This document shows, piece by piece, positions 27,802 to 36,297 of a stretch of 64,000 nucleotides of DNA (position 1 is the first letter of the stretch; each line of letters begins with the position of its first letter). A program made the position numbers and the translations under genes. The DNA is taken from contig CALXSY010000001.1 of assembly GCA_944391285.1 (NCBI GenBank), positions 62,001 through 126,000 of the forward strand. The letters are read 5' to 3'. The stretch is from an uncultured Clostridia bacterium (GTDB lineage: Bacteria; Bacillota; Peptococcia; Peptococcales; Peptococcaceae). Under the pieces are notes generated by a model that saw nothing but the letters and a program-made list of their open reading frames with translations, did not search any database and was not told the DNA's origin.

Positions 27802-28920
27802 TTAATAAGCAGAAGCGCTGGTGGAAGGAGTAAAGATTTGCGCTACTTGTTCATCGGTTAATTCAACACCGAATACTTCCAGGTAATAATCCTTTACTTC
27901 CTGATTTAAGTCAATATCGCTGAAAAGTTCGGGATAAGCAGTTTGCGCTAACCATAATAAGGTTAAAGGCGTATCTACACCGGGAGTGTAGCTGCGGTAC
28001 ATTCCTAAAGGCATTTTGTAAACATTTTTGTCTTGAATAGCTTGCACAACACTCCAGTCATAGGAGCCGATGGTGTTATTGTATAAATCTTCCGGCATAG
28101 CCGAAGTGAAATTGGTAATAAAAATGGTGTCCGGATTCCAGGAGTAAACCTGCTCCATATTAACGGCAACAGAGTTATCGGCGGTTAATTCGTTGGCTAC
28201 GTTAACAGCGCCGATAGCATCTGCCCACCATTGACCGAAGAAATGAGCACCGGAGGTAACCAAAGTAGTTTCGCTGTAGTTAAAGAGGAAGAAGACTCTG
28301 GCTCTTTCTTCATCGCTTAAGTTAGCAGTGCGTTCTTGAATCATATCGTAAATTTCATAGCTTTTGTCGTGAACTAAAGCAGTGCGGTCATTATCCGGCC
28401 AGATTTCGCTTAAAAGAGCGATCCAGTTGTCTAAAGTTTCGATAGCATCGTAATCCCATTTGTTGACGGAGACGGCAACAGCGCTTAAGCCGGCTTGGGT
28501 TAACTGCTCGCCGATGGACGGATTGGCAGCATTGTAAAAGACGATATCCGGTTCAAGGGAGAGCAATTCTTCGATATTGAGCTCGCCGCCTTGTGCATAG
28601 GAGGTTTCAACGTCTAAAATGTCTGGATAAAGCTCGCCCAAAAGACCGTTTTCGGCAGCAGTCATGCATTCCGGCGGCATGCCGACGATTTTTTCGGCAG
28701 AGTCAAAGAAGATAGCAAAAACAGAAGGCAAAGGCCAGATGCCGTGGAAGGCAACTCTTTGGGGATTTTTTATAACTTGTACTTGGTTGTCATTGTGGTC
28801 GGTAATGGTGATGTACTCTGTTTCACCGGATTGTTGTTCATCTTGCGCACCGCAGGCAGCAAGGGTTAAGCATAAAGCTAAAATTAAGATGAGGCTGATA
28901 AATTTAGTAAATTTACGCAT
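27802..28920 (-). CDS. ABC transporter solute-binding lipoprotein (iron-complex/cobalamin type)
   Basis: 372 residues. A signal sequence ends in the lipobox LAAC with Cys23, so it is a lipoprotein. The body matches the periplasmic-binding class III fold of iron-siderophore, haem and cobalamin binders: NPQRVAFHGIWPLPSVF, LNIEELLSLEPDIVFYN, WNPDTIFITNF. The start lies two bases after the upstream component-1 gene, so it is tightly coupled to the nitrogenase-like proteins rather than to its own permease and ATPase at 33.2-35.3 kb. The ligand is unknown; a tetrapyrrole, metal chelate or bare metal are possible. Confidence 0.87.
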   Translation of the reverse strand: MRKFTKFISLILILALCLTLAACGAQDEQQSGETEYITITDHNDNQVQVIKNPQRVAFHGIWPLPSVFAIFFDSAEKIVGMPPECMTAAENGLLGELYPDILDVETSYAQGGELNIEELLSLEPDIVFYNAANPSIGEQLTQAGLSAVAVSVNKWDYDAIETLDNWIALLSEIWPDNDRTALVHDKSYEIYDMIQERTANLSDEERARVFFLFNYSETTLVTSGAHFFGQWWADAIGAVNVANELTADNSVAVNMEQVYSWNPDTIFITNFTSAMPEDLYNNTIGSYDWSVVQAIQDKNVYKMPLGMYRSYTPGVDTPLTLLWLAQTAYPELFSDIDLNQEVKDYYLEVFGVELTDEQVAQIFTPSTSASAY

Positions 28921-28921
28921 G

Positions 28922-30058
28922 TTAATTCTCCTTTTTTAATGGTTTATTGATTAAATTAGGCAATTTGTCCCGGTACATTCTGCCGGAAAAAGCTTCGTGG
29001 GGCAAATTGTAAAATTTAGCTGAGGAAGGAACAACAGGCTCATATAAGCCGTCGGCTATAACGAGCGGCGCATCTTTTAAGAGCGCTGTCAAATCATCTT
29101 CATCGGTGCAGGTGCGGTCAATTTCACGCAGAAGCTCCGGAGAAGCCGCTAAAGGGGTGACAACCTGGCAGTTTAAATTTAAATCCATTGCCAGGCTTTG
29201 GGCTAAGGAGCAAGCGGTTACGCTTTCGCCGATGATAATGCCCTGAGGCTTGCAAGCGGTATTTTTAGCATAGCTTACGCTTGAGTTGCCGGAAGCTATG
29301 GCTGCCTTTAAGTCGCCGGCAAGCTTTTGGGAAAATTTTTCGCCGTAAGGCACGCCAACTACATAAGGAATACCGTATTTTTTTTGAAATAGCTTAGCTA
29401 AAGGCAAGGAATCGGAAGAAAGCACCAGATTAACCTCTGCTTGAGCACTTTGGGCAATTTCCTCAAGGCTTGAGCCCATGCTCCAGCAGGATTGAATTTT
29501 AAAGCCTTGACCTTCGAGAAAAGCTCGGATATCTTCCACTTGGGAGTTGATGGAGAAATCCAAAGGCGTGGCTCCCAAAATATTAACCGCACCTTTGACC
29601 TTAGCAGTCTGCGGGCAGACAAAGCGGTTAAATAACGCTTGGTAAGCCTGCGAAACGCCGGAAAGGTAGGAGTGCATGCCGTTGGTGGCGATGCCGAGGG
29701 AAGGTATGCCGCATTTATTTTCGCACATGGTGGCAAGAGCGGCAAAATCCACTCCGCTGATCAGCGGAATAGGAGTGCCGCAGATGGCGATAAAATTAGG
29801 GTTTAACTCTTTAGCGGCAACGAGAATATCGTTTACTAAGCGGTCATCGCCGCCCATGACTGCTTCCATTTCAGTTAAAGCAGAAACATAAACAGCGCTG
29901 TCCATATAATAAGCTCGTGGTTCATCGTGGGTATGATAAGTAGAGTTGCAGCCGGAGGCATCGTGCATGATGACGAGTCCGCCTAACTCATACAAGGCTG
30001 AGCAGACGCCGGAGGTATCGGCGGTGTAGGCCGAAATAAATGATGCAGTTTGTTTCAT
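28922..30058 (-). CDS. Nitrogenase component 1-like protein, shorter subunit
   Basis: 378 residues, shorter than NifD/NifK (about 480-520). The fold-typical pieces are HDASGCNSTYHTHDEPR, NPNFIAICGTPIPLISGVDF and KYGIPYVVGVPYGEKF. Cys19, Cys37 and Cys93 have the order and rough spacing of the three P-cluster/[4Fe-4S] ligands of the family. I see no clear match to the NifD Cys275/His442 FeMo-cofactor ligands. The ATG overlaps the stop of the previous gene by four bases (ATGA). It probably forms a heteromer with the product of 30055-31377. Substrate unknown. Confidence 0.82.
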   Translation of the reverse strand: MKQTASFISAYTADTSGVCSALYELGGLVIMHDASGCNSTYHTHDEPRAYYMDSAVYVSALTEMEAVMGGDDRLVNDILVAAKELNPNFIAICGTPIPLISGVDFAALATMCENKCGIPSLGIATNGMHSYLSGVSQAYQALFNRFVCPQTAKVKGAVNILGATPLDFSINSQVEDIRAFLEGQGFKIQSCWSMGSSLEEIAQSAQAEVNLVLSSDSLPLAKLFQKKYGIPYVVGVPYGEKFSQKLAGDLKAAIASGNSSVSYAKNTACKPQGIIIGESVTACSLAQSLAMDLNLNCQVVTPLAASPELLREIDRTCTDEDDLTALLKDAPLVIADGLYEPVVPSSAKFYNLPHEAFSGRMYRDKLPNLINKPLKKEN

Positions 30059-31377
30059 ATCAGTTCACACCCCCAAGCTTTCTTTTGCACCAATTTGGCG
30101 GTATCTTTTTCCTTAAGGAAGGCTTCGATGATTAAATCCAGCATTTTTAAAATGCCGTTAAAGCCGTAAAAACCGCCATTGTTGATTGTATTGACAAAAT
30201 AAGGAGTATCGGTAAAGTAGGCAGCCTTTTGTCCTATAGCCAAAACTTTAGTGCCGGTGGAGTAATGATTGAACCGCATTTTAAAATTATTGACCGAAAA
30301 AATCTGCAATTGAGGATAATGCTCCTTTAAATAGTAAAAATCATCTTTTTCCACCGCTTCAAACCCGTCGGCATAGATGCGGCAGACATTAAAGCCGTGG
30401 TCCAAAAGCAAGCGCGCCAGGCTTAAAATGCGCATAGAAACCGTATAGTCAATAGCAATCGGCGCATCTTGAATAATTTCTTTGGCTTGCATTAATTTGG
30501 CTTCAATCAGTTCTTGGTAATGGCTGTAATCCGGCAAAGTAATATCAAAATATTGAGCTAATTTTGTCAAAGTAGCATTCATCTCGTCGTAATTATAGCT
30601 CGTCGGCAAATAGAGATAATCCTGACCGTAGGTTTCTTTTAAATATTTAACTGCCGGCCAGGCTACCGAGTTGTAGAAAATATTGACAGCACCTTTAGCC
30701 ATCTCCTGATAGTCTTCGTAAGTATGGCAGTCATGAATCTCTGTGACCTTGAGATCGTTAGTGCTTAAAAGCTTGATTAAATCGCTTTCTTTGTCGGTAG
30801 CCAGATTATTGCCGATGATATTGACTCTTTTGGGGTCTAAATCTTTTTTGTGCCAGAGCGAGTACAGCTGCCGGCACATCAATTCTTCCGGATTAAGCCC
30901 GCTTTTGCGCATGGTAGGAGTCATGTAGCAGTCGATAAAGTCGATGTGAGGGAATTTTTCCCGCAAGGTTTTGTAGACATAGTTTAAATCACAGGCGATA
31001 AAATGATGAATACAGCTGGTATAAAGCAAAACAGCCCGGGGAGTGTATTTCAGCTTGCTTAAAATATCGCTGACCCCGTCGATAATCAACGATTCCATAT
31101 CGCCGTTTAAAACATTGTTTTCCTGCACAAAAATGCTGGAGAAACGCTCCATTTTGCCCATTTCGGCGGCTGTTAAAACGACACCGCGCAGACAGCCTTG
31201 AGCACAGACAAATATTTCATGGGCTTCGGGAATAAGCATGCCGGTATTAACAATATTCCAAGTACCTCTGACTGCCGCCGAATATTCGAGTGTAGGGTCA
31301 AAGGGTGCCGGAAAAGGAGCATCTTTAATGGCTTTCTGGGCGATGGCTCCTTGAGTTAAATCTACTTTTTTTAACAT
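30055..31377 (-). CDS. Nitrogenase component 1-like protein, longer subunit
   Basis: 440 residues of the nitrogenase component 1 superfamily. FVCAQGCLRGVV (Cys58, Cys62) and LYTSCIHHFIACD (Cys122, Cys129) occupy the places of P-cluster ligands in NifD/NifK. The next parts (KRVNIIGNNLATDKESDLIKL, IAIDYTVSMRILSLARLLLDHGF) resemble the Rossmann-like domains of the family. The ATG shares one base with the stop of the NifH-like gene (TAATG), so translation is coupled. It is likely one half of the catalytic component that receives electrons from the NifH-like protein. It is not a true nitrogenase subunit by length or motif set. Confidence 0.85.
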   Translation of the reverse strand: MLKKVDLTQGAIAQKAIKDAPFPAPFDPTLEYSAAVRGTWNIVNTGMLIPEAHEIFVCAQGCLRGVVLTAAEMGKMERFSSIFVQENNVLNGDMESLIIDGVSDILSKLKYTPRAVLLYTSCIHHFIACDLNYVYKTLREKFPHIDFIDCYMTPTMRKSGLNPEELMCRQLYSLWHKKDLDPKRVNIIGNNLATDKESDLIKLLSTNDLKVTEIHDCHTYEDYQEMAKGAVNIFYNSVAWPAVKYLKETYGQDYLYLPTSYNYDEMNATLTKLAQYFDITLPDYSHYQELIEAKLMQAKEIIQDAPIAIDYTVSMRILSLARLLLDHGFNVCRIYADGFEAVEKDDFYYLKEHYPQLQIFSVNNFKMRFNHYSTGTKVLAIGQKAAYFTDTPYFVNTINNGGFYGFNGILKMLDLIIEAFLKEKDTAKLVQKKAWGCELI

Positions 31378-32144
31378 TATTTCACCCCGCTTTGGCTGAG
31401 GCGAAGGATATTATCTGCCAGCTTGCGGTATTCCTGCGCTTGCTCGCTGTCAGGATAAGCCTCCAGCACACACATGTGCTGATCTTCTGCCAGCTGCACC
31501 AGTTCATTGCGGTTAATGGTGCCGACGATGGGAGCAGAAAAATCTTGGGCTAATTGGCTGACTTTTTCGTCCTCGTGGGGAACATTGCGTTTGTTTAAAA
31601 TAAAGCCGCCTAAGGAAGCATAGCCGCGGTTTTTAAAATTGGCGACGGCGGTGGCAATATTGGCGGCGGCGTAGATGGACATATTTTCGCCGCTGGTGAC
31701 GATATAAACCATGTCAGCGTAGCCTTGGCGCATGGGCATGGAGAAACCGCCGCAAACCACATCACCGGGGCAGTCGTAAAGCACTACATCGGGAGTGAAT
31801 TTTTCATAAGCGCCTTTTTCGTTCAATTTTTCTAAAGCGGCAATGATACCTCTGCCGGCACAGCCAACTCCCGGAGTAGGACCGCCGGATTCTACGCAGA
31901 TGACACCATTAAAGCCAATTTGCGTAACGTCATCTAAGGTGAAATCATCGCCTTTTTGGCGCATAGTTTCCAAAATGCTCATCATAGGTTTAGTGCCGTG
32001 ATAAAGATTTAAGGTCGAATCGGATTTAGGGTCGCAGCCGATCTGCATGACTTTTAATCCTTTTTCGGCTAAAGCGGCGGAAATATTGCTCAAGGTGGTG
32101 GATTTACCGATGCCGCCTTTGCCGTAGATTGCTAATTTTATCAT
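31377..32144 (-). CDS. NifH-like ATP-dependent electron-transfer protein
   Basis: 255 residues. P-loop GKGGIGKST (8-16), CDPKSDST, and the two Cys that hold the intersubunit [4Fe-4S] cluster of Fe proteins: Cys95 in GVGCAGRG and Cys131 in GDVVCGGFSMPMR. Family members (NifH, BchL, BchX, CfbC, MarH) couple ATP hydrolysis to one-electron transfer to a component 1 partner. The ATG at 32144 is chosen from AAAGGAG upstream; a longer start has no RBS. Two component 1-like genes follow directly. The neighbours do not match nif, bch, cfb or mar gene sets. Confidence 0.92.
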   Translation of the reverse strand: MIKLAIYGKGGIGKSTTLSNISAALAEKGLKVMQIGCDPKSDSTLNLYHGTKPMMSILETMRQKGDDFTLDDVTQIGFNGVICVESGGPTPGVGCAGRGIIAALEKLNEKGAYEKFTPDVVLYDCPGDVVCGGFSMPMRQGYADMVYIVTSGENMSIYAAANIATAVANFKNRGYASLGGFILNKRNVPHEDEKVSQLAQDFSAPIVGTINRNELVQLAEDQHMCVLEAYPDSEQAQEYRKLADNILRLSQSGVK

Positions 32145-32158
32145 AAAAAGTTCTCCTT

Positions 32159-33208
32159 TCAAGATATACTGAAATAATCGCCTTTGGCACAATAGAGAGT
32201 GTAGCCGATTTCTTCCATGTGCTTTTGCAGTACCTGCAATTCTTCGCCGCCGTCTTCGCCGCTTATGGCTTTGTTGTCATAAAGGGTGTATTTTTTGCGG
32301 TTGGTGAAGGGGGAGACATTGGGCATGATGACATTGCAGCCGGCTAAAACTCCGGCCTTTCGTCCGTCGGTATCCAATGAACCCAAGGCAGTAGTGGCAG
32401 GCAAAAGCACTGTTGGCAGCATGATGCGGCAAAGTGAGAGCAAAAATATAGTTAAATCCACACTGCCGTGGGCATATTGGCTAAAGGGCGTCTGATGATG
32501 AGGGATAAAAGGTCCCATGCCGATCATCTGCGGTTTAAAGCTCGCCATGTAATACATATCTTCCGCTAAGGTTTGCACTGTTTGAAAGGGAGCGCCGATC
32601 ATAGCGCCGCAGCCGGTTTGATAGCCGATGCTTTTTAAATCTTCCAAACACTTCATGCGGTGCTCAAAACTCATTTCAGCGGGGTGGAGCGCATTATAAT
32701 GCTCCTTGGTAGCTGTTTCGTGGCGGAGCAGATAACGGTTGGCGCCTGCCTCAAAAAACGCTTGGTAGGAGTCATGTTCCTTTTCCCCGATGGAGAGGGT
32801 AATAGCACAGTCAGGATAAGCGGCGTGAATAGCCTTGATGATTTCTAACATCTTTTCATCGGTGTAGTAGGGATCTTCGCCGCTTTGCAGGACAAAGGTG
32901 CGAAATCCCCAGTCGTAAGCGTTGGCACAGCAGTTTAAAATATCCTCCAAACTCATGCGGTAGCGGCTGCACTCGGAATTGCTTTTGCGGATACCGCAAT
33001 AGTAGCAGTCGTTTTTGCAAAAGTTGGTGAATTCGATAATGCCGCGGAAAAATATCCGACTGCCGAAATGTTTTTGGGCTATTTTTTGCGCTGTTTCTTG
33101 AGCATAGGCTTTATCCTCTGGGGTATAAGTGGAGATAAGCTGAGCAAATTCCTCGCGGGATAAAATGTGCTCTTCTTTTAATTTATCGATAAGCTCTTGA
33201 TTATTCAT
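32159..33208 (-). CDS. hydE: HydE-like radical SAM enzyme
   Basis: 349 residues, the usual HydE length. The radical SAM motif is CKNDCYYC with Cys64, Cys68 and Cys71. FGSRIFFRGIIEFTNFC, VLQSGEDPYYTDEKM, LRHETATKEHY and GPFIPHHQTPF match the HydE/BioB-like family. HydE acts on the HydG-made iron-Cys-CO-CN synthon in H-cluster assembly. No hydG is nearby, so either hydG lies elsewhere or this enzyme has another substrate in the nitrogenase-like pathway. It lies between the ABC ATPase and the NifH-like gene with 12- and 14-base gaps. Confidence 0.85.
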   Translation of the reverse strand: MNNQELIDKLKEEHILSREEFAQLISTYTPEDKAYAQETAQKIAQKHFGSRIFFRGIIEFTNFCKNDCYYCGIRKSNSECSRYRMSLEDILNCCANAYDWGFRTFVLQSGEDPYYTDEKMLEIIKAIHAAYPDCAITLSIGEKEHDSYQAFFEAGANRYLLRHETATKEHYNALHPAEMSFEHRMKCLEDLKSIGYQTGCGAMIGAPFQTVQTLAEDMYYMASFKPQMIGMGPFIPHHQTPFSQYAHGSVDLTIFLLSLCRIMLPTVLLPATTALGSLDTDGRKAGVLAGCNVIMPNVSPFTNRKKYTLYDNKAISGEDGGEELQVLQKHMEEIGYTLYCAKGDYFSIS

Positions 33209-33220
33209 ATTAATTTCTCC

Positions 33221-34282
33221 TTAAGTTAAGGTAGCGTAAGTAGCTTTGACATTGACCTTAGGCAAAAGGCTCAAAGCATGAACCAATTCCTCGATGCGTT
33301 CTTTGGGCGCTTTTAAGGTGATATTGATAATGTAAACATTGTCTTCTTTATAAGGCATACCCATGCGCCCGATTAAATACTCGCTGTAGCAATGCAGGAG
33401 ATTGTTGATGTTTTCCGCCTGGGCAAAATCGCCGTTGATGATGGAAATGACGGCTAAAGCTTCTTTGTCGGGAGTATCGGTGTAGTTTAAAGGATCGGTA
33501 AGCACGCTTAAGGGGATAACGTCGGTAAACATCTGCCCCGGGGTTTCTACCTGACCGATGACCGCCTTGACGCCAAAGGCTTTGGCGATGTTTTCTTCGG
33601 TAATCAGACTGCGGGTCGGTCCGAATTGATATTCGCCGCCTTTGGAGAGAATAAAAGCCTTATTGGAGCGCTGAAGAGCGTGGGCGGGATAGTGGGTGTT
33701 GAAAAGGCAAATCATGCCTTGAGCTGCCAAAGCAGAAATGGTATCTAAAACGATCAGTTGGTTTTTAAAATCCAAATTGCTCTCCGGCTCATCAAGAATG
33801 AGAATCTGGGCGTTGCTGGCTAAAGCCCGGGCGATTAAAACCATTTGCAGCTCGCCGCCGCTTAATTGGTTGCAGTGCTTGCCTTTAAGCTTGGTGATGT
33901 GCAGGCGTTCCAACAATTCATCGACCAACTCAAAATCCTTAGCCTGGGGCTTGCTGAAAAAGTTTAAATGACTGCCTCTGCCCAAAAGCACCATTTCTTC
34001 CACGCTGAATGCCGAAGAAACGCCTTTGGCTTGGGGCACATAAGCTATTTGCTGCCAAAGATTTTTGGCAGAGATAGTGCGGATATCTACTCCGTTTAAG
34101 TAGCTTGCTCCCTGGCGCCAGGGAAGCAGTCCCATAAGGCACTTGAGGAGAGTTGTTTTGCCGGCGCCGTTGGGTCCTAAGATGGCTAAAACATCGCCGT
34201 CGGTAACAGAAAGATTGACATTTTTAAAGATTAATTTATCTTTGCGGTAGCCGAAGCTAGCGTCTTTTATTTCTAATTTCAT
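33221..34282 (-). CDS. ABC transporter ATPase fused to a TM1266-like regulatory domain
   Basis: 353 residues. The FepC/BtuD-type ATPase occupies about 1-250: Walker A GPNGAGKT, signature LSGGELQ, Walker B ILILDEPESNLD. Residues from about 272 to the end form a separate domain (EALAVISIING, YLIGRMGMPYKEDN, LKAPKERIEELV). This resembles the whole of the small regulator at 35496-35756, including the shared IGRMG(I/M)PY. TM1266-type proteins are linked to [FeFe]-hydrogenase systems. By analogy with the C-terminal sensor domain of MetN, it may gate transport by binding a small ligand. ATG at 34282 is supported by GGAGG nine bases before and overlaps the permease stop (ATGA). Confidence 0.87.
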   Translation of the reverse strand: MKLEIKDASFGYRKDKLIFKNVNLSVTDGDVLAILGPNGAGKTTLLKCLMGLLPWRQGASYLNGVDIRTISAKNLWQQIAYVPQAKGVSSAFSVEEMVLLGRGSHLNFFSKPQAKDFELVDELLERLHITKLKGKHCNQLSGGELQMVLIARALASNAQILILDEPESNLDFKNQLIVLDTISALAAQGMICLFNTHYPAHALQRSNKAFILSKGGEYQFGPTRSLITEENIAKAFGVKAVIGQVETPGQMFTDVIPLSVLTDPLNYTDTPDKEALAVISIINGDFAQAENINNLLHCYSEYLIGRMGMPYKEDNVYIINITLKAPKERIEELVHALSLLPKVNVKATYATLT

Positions 34283-35298
34283 AATTGCCAACCTCCGCTT
34301 TTACGCATGAGAATGATGAAAAATGGTGCGCCGATAATCGCCGTTAGGATGGAAATAGGAATTTCCGCCGCTAAAAGGCTGCGGGCAATAGTATCAACGA
34401 TGACCATAAAGCTGGCGCCCAAGGAAGCCGAAGCCGGCACCAAAGACAAATGATTGTTGCCAAAACGCATCCGGCAGATGTGGGGAATCAAAAGTCCCAC
34501 CCAGCCAACCTGACCGCACATGGCGATGCAGGCACCGGTCATCATAGTTGCGCAGATAATGGTGATGAGGCGCAGGGTGCGGATATTAACACCGCTGGAT
34601 TTGGCTTCGTCGTCGCTGAGGGGAAGAATATTGAGCCGCCAGCGCAGAGCATAGAGCACAACAGCGCCGATAATGATTAAAGGAGCGCCGATTTTTAAGG
34701 AATCAAAGCCGGTTTGCTGCAAACTGCCCATCAGCCAGTAAGTGATTTCCGGCAGCTGGGAGTCAGTATCGGCGGTGTATTTAACTAAGGAAACCAAGGC
34801 GCTGAAAAGTGAGCCGATCATGATACCGCCCAAAACTAAGCTGGTAGTAGAGCGGTTTTTGCCGCTGGAGGACAAATAGGTTAAAAAGACAGCGACAGCG
34901 CCGAAGAAAAAAGCGGCGATTTCTATGCCTATAAGATTAAATCCCAATAAAATACCCAGCGCTGCGCCAAAGGAAGCGCCGCTGGCTACACCTAAAGTGT
35001 CCGGCGTGGCTAAAGGATTAGCAAATAAGCTTTGGAAGGCTAAACCGGAAAGGGACAGCCCTAAGCCAACCAATAAAGCCAGGATAATGCGGGGAAGCCG
35101 GACATTATAGATGGTAGCGTAGGTAAGGGGATTGACTGTAATATCGGAGTTAAAGGAAGAATGCAGTGCATTTAAGACTTCAGCGGGCGAAATATTCATC
35201 CGTCCGATGCCTAAAGCAAAAAATGCGCAGATAAAAGGCAAAATTAACAGAACGATTTTGCTTAATAGGGATAATTCACCGATAAGTGGTTTTTTCAA
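34279..35298 (-). CDS. FecCD/BtuC-type ABC transporter permease
   Basis: 339 residues and about ten membrane helices. Family signatures are NVRLPRIILALLVGLGLSLSG, FANPLATPDTLGVASGASFGA, LGGIMIGSLFSAL and GWVGLLIPHICRM. It forms the channel for iron-complex, haem, cobalamin or similar substrates. The TTG at 35298 is selected: GGAGG lies ten bases upstream, and any longer start would run through the terminator hairpin at 35323-35349. It is coupled to the ATPase gene by a four-base overlap. Confidence 0.9.
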   Translation of the reverse strand: MKKPLIGELSLLSKIVLLILPFICAFFALGIGRMNISPAEVLNALHSSFNSDITVNPLTYATIYNVRLPRIILALLVGLGLSLSGLAFQSLFANPLATPDTLGVASGASFGAALGILLGFNLIGIEIAAFFFGAVAVFLTYLSSSGKNRSTTSLVLGGIMIGSLFSALVSLVKYTADTDSQLPEITYWLMGSLQQTGFDSLKIGAPLIIIGAVVLYALRWRLNILPLSDDEAKSSGVNIRTLRLITIICATMMTGACIAMCGQVGWVGLLIPHICRMRFGNNHLSLVPASASLGASFMVIVDTIARSLLAAEIPISILTAIIGAPFFIILMRKSGGWQL

Positions 35299-35315: not shown

Positions 35316-35349
35316 AGAAAAAAGGCTGCACCAAAAAAAGGTGCAGCCT
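35316..35349 (-). terminator. Leader terminator (attenuator) before the permease
   Basis: AGGCTGCACC and GGTGCAGCCT form a perfect 10-bp stem with a seven-base loop. On the minus strand TTTTTTC follows, directly before the permease RBS. Its 5' arm can pair with the conserved hairpin motif upstream (35405-35441). Confidence 0.88.
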
Positions 35350-35404: not shown

Positions 35405-35441
35405 AGGGCTTTCACCGCAAAAAATATTTTTGGTGTCAGGG
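35405..35441 (-). ncRNA. Conserved hairpin motif, copy B (permease leader)
   Basis: On the minus strand CTGACACC, an A/T-rich loop and TTGCGGTGAAAGCC. CACC pairs with GGTG. It shares flanking bases with copy A at 35837-35867, where the pair reads CATC/GATG, a compensatory change. It lies between the regulator stop and the permease terminator. Not recognised as a known riboswitch class. Confidence 0.55.
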
Positions 35442-35495
35442 ATTATTAAATTAAAAATCTTTGTGAAAAGTAAACTCGTCACGCAGAAAGATTGA

Positions 35496-35756
35496 TTATT
35501 CTTGATGGGAGACCACATGGGAAAGGACGGTTTTGGCGCTAACTCCTTTCAGACGACCGACTTTGCCGGATAAAGCATTGATGATATCCTGGGGAGCGTC
35601 AATGGCAACACTGATAAGGTTAATGCCTTTATCGCGGTAAGGTATGCCCATGCGTCCGATGATATATGTACCGTATTCGTGCAAAATAGCATTGACTCCG
35701 TCAACGGAATTTCGTTCTTCCACAATAATAGCCACCACGGCAACTCTGCTTTCCAT
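35496..35756 (-). CDS. TM1266-type iron-only hydrogenase system regulator
   Basis: 86 residues. It starts ESRVAVVAIIVEERNSV and has the family core YIIGRMGIPYRDKG and SVAIDAPQDIINALSGKVG. The family has a small ferredoxin-like/ACT-like fold and normally lies with hydEFG; it has no helix-turn-helix, so direct DNA binding is not evident. ATG at 35756 has AGGAGGG upstream; a longer start has none. It is the first gene of the nine-gene unit, behind a strong promoter and a leader terminator. A homologous domain is fused to the ABC ATPase two genes downstream. Confidence 0.9.
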   Translation of the reverse strand: MESRVAVVAIIVEERNSVDGVNAILHEYGTYIIGRMGIPYRDKGINLISVAIDAPQDIINALSGKVGRLKGVSAKTVLSHVVSHQE

Positions 35757-35768
35757 AAAAACCCTCCT

Positions 35769-35802
35769 AAAAATAAAAATAGCTATACTGCGAGTATAGC
35801 CC
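35769..35802 (-). terminator. Leader terminator (attenuator) before the TM1266-type regulator
   Basis: GCTATACT and AGTATAGC pair around a three-base loop; on the minus strand TATTTTTATTTTT follows, then the AGGAGG RBS. It lies between the promoter and the first gene, so it should regulate the operon. Confidence 0.82.
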
Positions 35803-35836
35803 AAATAAACGAAAAAATTGCTTTTCATCTCTAAGA

Positions 35837-35867
35837 AGGCTTCCATCGCAATAAAATTTTGATGTCA
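35837..35867 (-). ncRNA. Conserved hairpin motif, copy A (regulator leader)
   Basis: On the minus strand CTGACATC, an A/T-rich loop, then TTGCGATGGAAGCC. CATC pairs with GATG. Same layout as copy B at 35405-35441 with one covarying pair. It would be at the very 5' end of the transcript, about ten bases after the -10 element, followed by the attenuator at 35769-35802. Confidence 0.55.
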
Positions 35868-35879
35868 GAATCTAATTTT

Positions 35880-35907
35880 ATTATAGCAAAGAGTTAAATT
35901 TTGTCAA
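35880..35907 (-). promoter_or_regulatory. Sigma-A promoter of the nitrogenase-like operon
   Basis: On the minus strand TTGACA (35902-35907), a 16-base spacer and TATAAT (35880-35885). Both hexamers are consensus. Confidence 0.9.
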
Positions 35908-36055: not shown

Positions 36056-36077
36056 TAAAATATTAGCTATAGTAAGC

Positions 36078-36297
36078 TTTGATGAGGACAAGAAAGAAAG
36101 GACAAGCACTAAAGAGAATGACGTCTCAGGCTGCAAGCGTCTGTGCCGAGCTTATCTTTTACCGCCTCGGAGCAGTTAGGGCGAACCCTAACCGGCTTAT
36201 CCCCGTTAAAGGATCGAGAGTGGGAGCTATGCTTCAACTTGGGTGGAAACACGGGAAATATATTCTCGTCCCAAAAGGGACGGGAATTTTTTTTATT
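36078..36297 (+). promoter_or_regulatory. T-box leader of thrS
   Basis: A structured leader of about 220 bases. The antiterminator core reads CTTGGGTGGAAACACGGG, close to the T-box consensus, with TGGA to pair with the tRNA acceptor end. Stem I closes GAGG with CCTC, and ACC (36161-36163), a Thr codon, sits where the specifier is expected. TTCTCGTCCC (36263-36272) and GGGACGGGAA (36277-36286) form the terminator with eight T. Uncharged tRNA-Thr should allow read-through into thrS. The specifier call is inference. Confidence 0.9.

Follow-up and report, generated by a model that had tools for sequence, protein, structure and literature searches.

Transcription-attenuating riboswitches of the small classes, such as preQ1, consist of a small 5' leader with an intrinsic terminator and alternative pairing. 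The leader hairpins described here resemble such leaders in their small size and in the terminator that follows, and may do so in a predicted alternative pairing; they match no Rfam family and possess one hairpin core with two 2x2 purine-rich internal loops. T-box leaders likewise exert terminator/antiterminator control in Bacillota; however, no T-box match is present at the hairpins, and the T-box leader candidate of the neighbourhood is sub-threshold (79.6 bits against a gathering score of 93) and lies at 36070-36276 on the plus strand before thrS, divergent from the operon treated here. Kink-turns combine a three-base bulge with tandem GA pairs. This class was rejected for the hairpins studied here, which contain a symmetric 2x2 loop (CU-GA-stem / stem-RA-AG) and no three-base bulge. 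A further likeness exists to the hairpin bound by LoaP in dfn and mln leaders, which is also a short leader hairpin before an intrinsic terminator and which is described as being of the UNCG tetraloop type (PMC12691694). In the family described here it is the internal loops that are conserved and not the hairpin loop, which does not follow the UNCG consensus, and assignment as a LoaP target was dismissed.

With regard to named RNA classes in general, Rfam 15 contains no family that reaches its gathering score at the hairpins or their relatives, and searches by E-value with the hairpin region and 12 other TM1266 leaders yielded only matches below gathering score. Membership of a known class was rejected on these grounds, and the match to a named RNA class by which the earlier note would have had its claim refuted did not turn up in Rfam. 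No RNA of this kind is described in the literature searched for riboswitches together with hydrogenase maturation or TM1266, although subscription papers may hold one, and hydE, hydF and related words are absent from two collections of candidate RNAs (Brewer 2021, PMC8632094; Stav 2019, PMC6429828). On the protein side, members of the TM1266 family (TIGR03959/PF21699, PDB 2nzc) share the fold of the C-terminal domain of NikR and, in contrast to NikR, lack a DNA-binding domain. The full-text literature searched for TM1266 offered neither a function nor a regulatory target for this protein, which bears the label of putative regulator, and TM1266 and words denoting regulation do not occur in PMC9431212.

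Two leader hairpins in a nitrogenase-like operon

The window, by which we mean the whole 64-kb stretch of DNA that was analysed, contains exactly two matches to the hairpin pattern CTGACAYC-N-TTGCGRTGRAAGCC, at 35838-35868 and 35407-35439, both on the minus strand, and 100 shuffles of the sequence contained none. The earlier note had reported two copies of a leader hairpin on this strand at 35837-35867 and 35405-35441; both are indeed there as the only matches of the pattern in the window, the sites being right and the ends one to two bases off. Its further observations are borne out by both sequences and by the gene order: one stem pair is U-A in copy 1 and C-G in copy 2 with unchanged flanks, and both hairpins are followed first by an intrinsic terminator and next by a gene of a single operon, which is TM1266 after copy 1 and the FecCD permease after copy 2. 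Neither a looser pattern nor covariance model R1 matched anywhere else in the window's genome.

On the minus strand, promoter, hairpin 1, terminator 1, TM1266, hairpin 2, terminator 2 and FecCD permease follow each other in this order. The sigma-70 promoter (35880-35907) has the form TTGACA-16-TATAAT, a TG standing ahead of the second hexamer. It matches the consensus at 12 of 12 positions (score 0) and leaves 11 nt between the second hexamer and hairpin copy 1. This copy (35840-35868; CU[GA]CAUC[AA]AAU..AUU[GC]GAUG[GA]AG) scores 44.1 bits with R1 and is followed by intrinsic terminator 1 (35781-35801; nine pairs, loop of three), while copy 2 (35409-35439; CU[GA]CACC[AA]...[GC]GGUG[AA]AG) scores 44.9 bits and is followed by intrinsic terminator 2 (35323-35349; ten pairs, loop of seven).

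All genes of the operon are encoded on the minus strand. The first (35496-35756) specifies an 86-residue protein with a NikR C-terminal-like sensor domain, which belongs to the TM1266 family with 112.7 bits against the TIGR03959 cut-off of 60.8 and also matches PF21699; it is the operon's own putative regulator. It is followed by the FecCD/BtuC-type ABC permease (34279-35298; PF01032) and an ABC ATPase (33221-34291; PF00005) that carries a second TM1266 domain (PF21699) at its C-terminus, placed as a regulatory domain may be. The same ATPase-TM1266 fusion recurs in several relatives. Further downstream lie genes for the radical SAM maturase HydE (32159-33208; TIGR03956, 536.5 bits), a NifH-like reductase (31377-32192; PF00142) that stays under the cut-offs of the nifH, CfbC and BchL/BchX models, a NifK/NifE-like subunit (30055-31377; PF00148), a NifD/NifE-like subunit (28922-30058; PF00148) and the periplasmic binding protein of the transporter (27802-28920; PF01497). 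The window's genome has four matches to the [FeFe]-hydrogenase large domain, yet the hairpin was detected only in the nitrogenase-like operon.

A family of covarying leader hairpins and its gene context

Among orthologous operons from other families of the phylum, located via their NifK-like protein, five (L065, L091, L092, L093 and L094) have the hairpin in front of TM1266; in two others (L066 and L090) a regular expression detected none. When about 85,000 species' genomes were scanned with the pattern CTGACANCRAAAN{4,9}TTGNGNTGRAAG, at least 119 matching stretches were obtained, the chance expectation being about three if base composition is uniform, for a pattern equivalent to 20 specified bases with six possible gap lengths in 2 x 257 Gb. 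Among the matches listed, the stem position that the pattern does not fix forms a standard pair at 75 of 80 loci, and all 75 are followed within 700 nt on the same strand by a gene of the system, a context found at none of the five unpaired loci. The downstream system gene at these 75 listed loci encodes TM1266 (59), HydF (5), HydE (5), FecCD (2), NifH (2), a binding protein (1) or an NMT1-like binding protein (1). Together with the two window copies the 75 loci represent 72 distinct sequences, with C-G (39), U-A (32) or A-U (1) as the free pair. The earlier note had pointed to TM1266, hydE and nifH-like genes as the places where homologues should be sought; they were found there and before hydF as well. 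A chance origin of the hairpin was rejected in view of the shuffles, the excess over expectation, the pairing and the gene context.

The consensus hairpin comprises CU-AG, a GA/RA internal loop and the stem CAYC/GRUG, then another internal loop, RA/GM, and a top stem rich in A-U pairs. While the hairpin loop is not conserved, the unpaired bases of the internal loops are; at R9/M25, the combinations G/A (48), A/C (13) and A/A (11) occur among the 72 sequences and G/C never does, which fits a non-Watson-Crick pair. In 51 sequences derived from the pattern only two pairs were free to vary: pair 7-27 is never unpaired and is changed on both sides in 25 sequences, and pair 13-21 occurs as four standard pair types and is unpaired in 12 of the 51. 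Since a pattern-derived set is biased, R1 was also applied to the order that includes Roseburia hominis, where 24 of 295 genomes had a match at E ≤ 0.001. The gene context was checked for 22 of these 24 matches, L343 and L349 being too short. All checked matches above 24.1 bits adjoin TM1266, HydF or FecCD. Below that score, L350, L351 and L356 also adjoin system genes, and no same-strand system gene adjoins L348, L352, L353, L354, L355 or L357. Members that depart from the pattern include a stem GGTC/GATC before NifH (L351), inner U-A instead of A-U pairs (L339, L340 and L347) and a stem TACC/GGTA (L303) in a TM1266 leader from the window's own family. Across 40 sequences that include such off-pattern members, pairs 5-29, 7-27, 12-22 and 13-21 change on both sides, and 96.7% of cells are paired, compared with 86.0% in shuffles and 21-49% in slid registers; cells that break a pair number two at 5-29, one at 6-28, two at 8-26 and seven at 13-21. 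Further homologues with covariation, on which the earlier note had let its claim stand or fall, exist with compensatory changes at four stem pairs, off-pattern members included.

A loose-core pattern matched 18 of 100 relatives, and all of these matches except the two sites in the window look like chance. A search of 398 genomes of the phylum with R1 gave few convincing matches (two in G000 and one each in G370 and G306). As TM1266 is nevertheless present in 212 of the 398, we inspected the upstream regions of other TM1266 genes, namely 40 leaders and 17 more, these being the ones from hairpin-negative genomes among 30 listed loci, for a generalised hairpin consisting of CUGA, a stem of at least four pairs and RARG. 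It is present in 23 of these 57 leaders of other clades (18 of 40 and 5 of 17), compared with a mean of 0.95 (maximum 4) in shuffles, none on the reverse strand and at most three leaders for any of the other 23 letter orders of C, T, G and A. The stems between the conserved ends are nearly unrelated in sequence (CCGG, GGGT, TAAA, CTTA etc.), and several of the TM1266 leaders have two consecutive hairpins of the CUGA/RARG type. Because the CUGA/RARG frame, the position and the terminators are shared, and not because a single model covers both, we take the window hairpin to be one form of a wider TM1266-leader RNA.

That the hairpins are a real and conserved family of cis-acting leader RNAs appears next to certain to us. 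The family is widespread and apparently unnamed, and precedes genes for the assembly of hydrogenases and related enzymes in many bacteria of the gut and in several phyla; the taxa among the matches listed include Lachnospiraceae, Oscillospiraceae, Ruminococcus, lactobacilli, Desulfovibrio and Lentisphaeria. At one locus (L106; genome G575, contig C78) the order hairpin-TM1266-hairpin-FecCD is the same as in the window. Tandem CUGM/RARG hairpins stand before a terminator in L285, L286, L291, L292, L302 and other TM1266 leaders. In L113, L130, L138, L162 and L168, the hairpin precedes an NMT1/SsuABC-like ABC transporter, either directly or together with TM1266; this naming rests on reading of the proteins and, for L168, on BLAST. 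The transporter is a possible clue to a transported precursor of the system.

Predicted attenuation and its direction

We know of no account of how cells decide to build the maturases of the H-cluster, and a conserved hairpin with a terminator constitutes a concrete, testable target for the control of their genes. A terminator score of at least 18 was reached after 65 of 77 sites, compared with 19 of 385 positions picked at random within those loci and 2 of 385 shuffles, and with an intrinsic terminator in the leader ahead of the gene the layout is that of a transcription attenuator. At 32 of 76 sites the promoter score is 2 or lower, as against 2% of shuffles, which places the hairpin near the 5' end of the transcript, often 7-16 nt from the -10 element. 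The proposal in the earlier note, a small riboswitch or protein-binding attenuator serving this system, stands as far as a conserved leader attenuator is concerned, on the strength of homologues, covariation, gene context and the lack of a match in Rfam.

The 3' strand of the hairpin (GRUGRAAG and the bases that follow) would compete with the 3' arm of the terminator for the terminator's 5' arm. For the 69 sites with a terminator score of at least 14, the duplex that the hairpin 3' strand, extended by 8 nt, forms with the terminator 5' arm and loop has a mean of -11.7 kcal/mol, compared with -7.1 for shuffled arms, and only at 36 of the 69 do no more than 2 of 50 shuffles equal it. The 3' strand of copy 2, GGUGAAAGCC (35407-35416, minus strand), is predicted to form an antiterminator with the 5' arm of terminator 2, GGCUGCACC (35348-35340), in which GGUG-AA-AGCC pairs with GGCU-G-CACC. 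Until the 3' arm of the terminator has been made, this fold is the one of lowest energy (-19.4; duplex -10.4), and 4 of 50 shuffles are as good, a fair outcome. In copy 1, AGCCU at the base of the hairpin (35837-35841, minus strand) pairs with GGGCU of terminator 1 (35802-35798) in the predicted pre-terminator fold; this is the sole pairing available and a weak one, 25 of 50 shuffles being as good. If the free hairpin opens, its 3' strand would form the antiterminator and the operon would be transcribed, and if a trans-acting factor keeps the hairpin closed, the terminator would form and the operon would be repressed. A closed hairpin should favour the terminator because hairpin and antiterminator use one and the same strand, and a repressing switch is what we consider the probable direction.

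TM1266 and other candidates for the sensing factor

The trans-acting factor could be the TM1266 protein itself, whose binding to the GA internal loops would depend on the state of the metal or cofactor handled by the system; this would make the operon self-repressing, and distant loci that bear the hairpin would likewise come under TM1266 control. TM1266 is encoded just downstream of 59 of the 75 listed sites, just upstream of 10 and near neither side of 6. It is present in 35 of 36 hairpin genomes, in most cases no more than about 150 nt from the hairpin on either side, and was not detected in one (G603). Five genomes with sites away from TM1266 were searched, that of L104 being left out, and four of them (G571, G579, G583 and G575) encode TM1266 elsewhere, G603 being the fifth. 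In the Roseburia order, all 17 hairpin genomes encode TM1266 above its cut-off, compared with 23 of 63 other genomes (Fisher 9e-7), a count that is optimistic and partly circular because gene context helped to choose the true hairpin matches. TM1266 can occur without this form of the hairpin, since 26 of the 63 hairpin-negative genomes carry it (23 over cut-off), and its nearness to the hairpin could be plain operon conservation. The structure model of TM1266 (pLDDT 93.8) has a ferredoxin-like fold closest to 2nzc and then to NikR, corresponding to the NikR sensor domain without the DNA-binding part. Standalone TM1266 proteins (47) retain R4 and a basic residue, K/R68, both of which are missing from the ATPase-fused domain (10). 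R4 together with a GKxG turn was discarded as a mark of hairpin binding, as it is also found in standalone TM1266 proteins without a visible hairpin.

The principal rival is a metabolite or metal riboswitch in which the GA internal loops would form the pocket and a ligand, for example an H-cluster precursor, iron, SAM or the transported compound, would close the hairpin and cause termination. A hairpin and terminator with alternative pairing, a regulon covering one cofactor pathway, the strict constraint on the R9/M25 loop, the six listed sites away from TM1266 and the hairpin genome without detected TM1266 all agree with such a riboswitch; however, the hairpin is very small and simple for an aptamer, and we regard this possibility as rather unlikely. 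The wider family preserves nothing but the CUGA/RARG frame and a stem whose sequence is free, which leaves little for a pocket. TM1266 is moderately favoured over a metabolite riboswitch as the binder of the hairpin, on the basis of co-occurrence, proximity and predicted fold. Binding by another protein, be it a ribosomal protein or an antitermination factor such as a NusG paralogue, with TM1266 as a mere neighbour, is improbable: the targets of LoaP do share the layout of a 5'-leader hairpin before a terminator, but their hairpin is described as being of the UNCG type (PMC12691694), no conserved loop exists in the present family and the regulon is narrow and specific. A constitutive element without sensing, serving mRNA 5'-end stability or as a fixed part of the terminator, would suit the frequent position within 7-16 nt of the -10 element and is highly improbable in view of the conserved unpaired bases, the complementarity of the 3' strand to the terminator 5' arm above that of shuffles and the 10 of 75 listed sites at which the hairpin stands between TM1266 and the next gene.

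Taken as a whole, we lean slightly towards an explanation in which the hairpins are conserved leader attenuators of a TM1266/[FeFe]-hydrogenase-maturation regulon that are bound by TM1266 and act as repressing elements. Whether TM1266 represents a new family of RNA-binding sensors, in which the NikR sensing domain would have been re-tasked onto tandem-GA hairpins in one multi-phylum regulon, we judge to be evenly balanced. If this holds true, [FeFe]-hydrogenase maturation, the nitrogenase-like enzyme with its transporter and other ABC transporters would constitute one RNA-attenuation regulon in several phyla. Through the common control element the nitrogenase-like/HydE/FecCD operon is linked with the hydrogenase system, which provides a clue to the chemistry of this operon. 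As a minor observation on TM1266 itself, position 49 (L314-L333) is Ser in the 11 genes sampled for which a hairpin was visible and Ala in six of the seven for which none was, a split that may be a clade effect.
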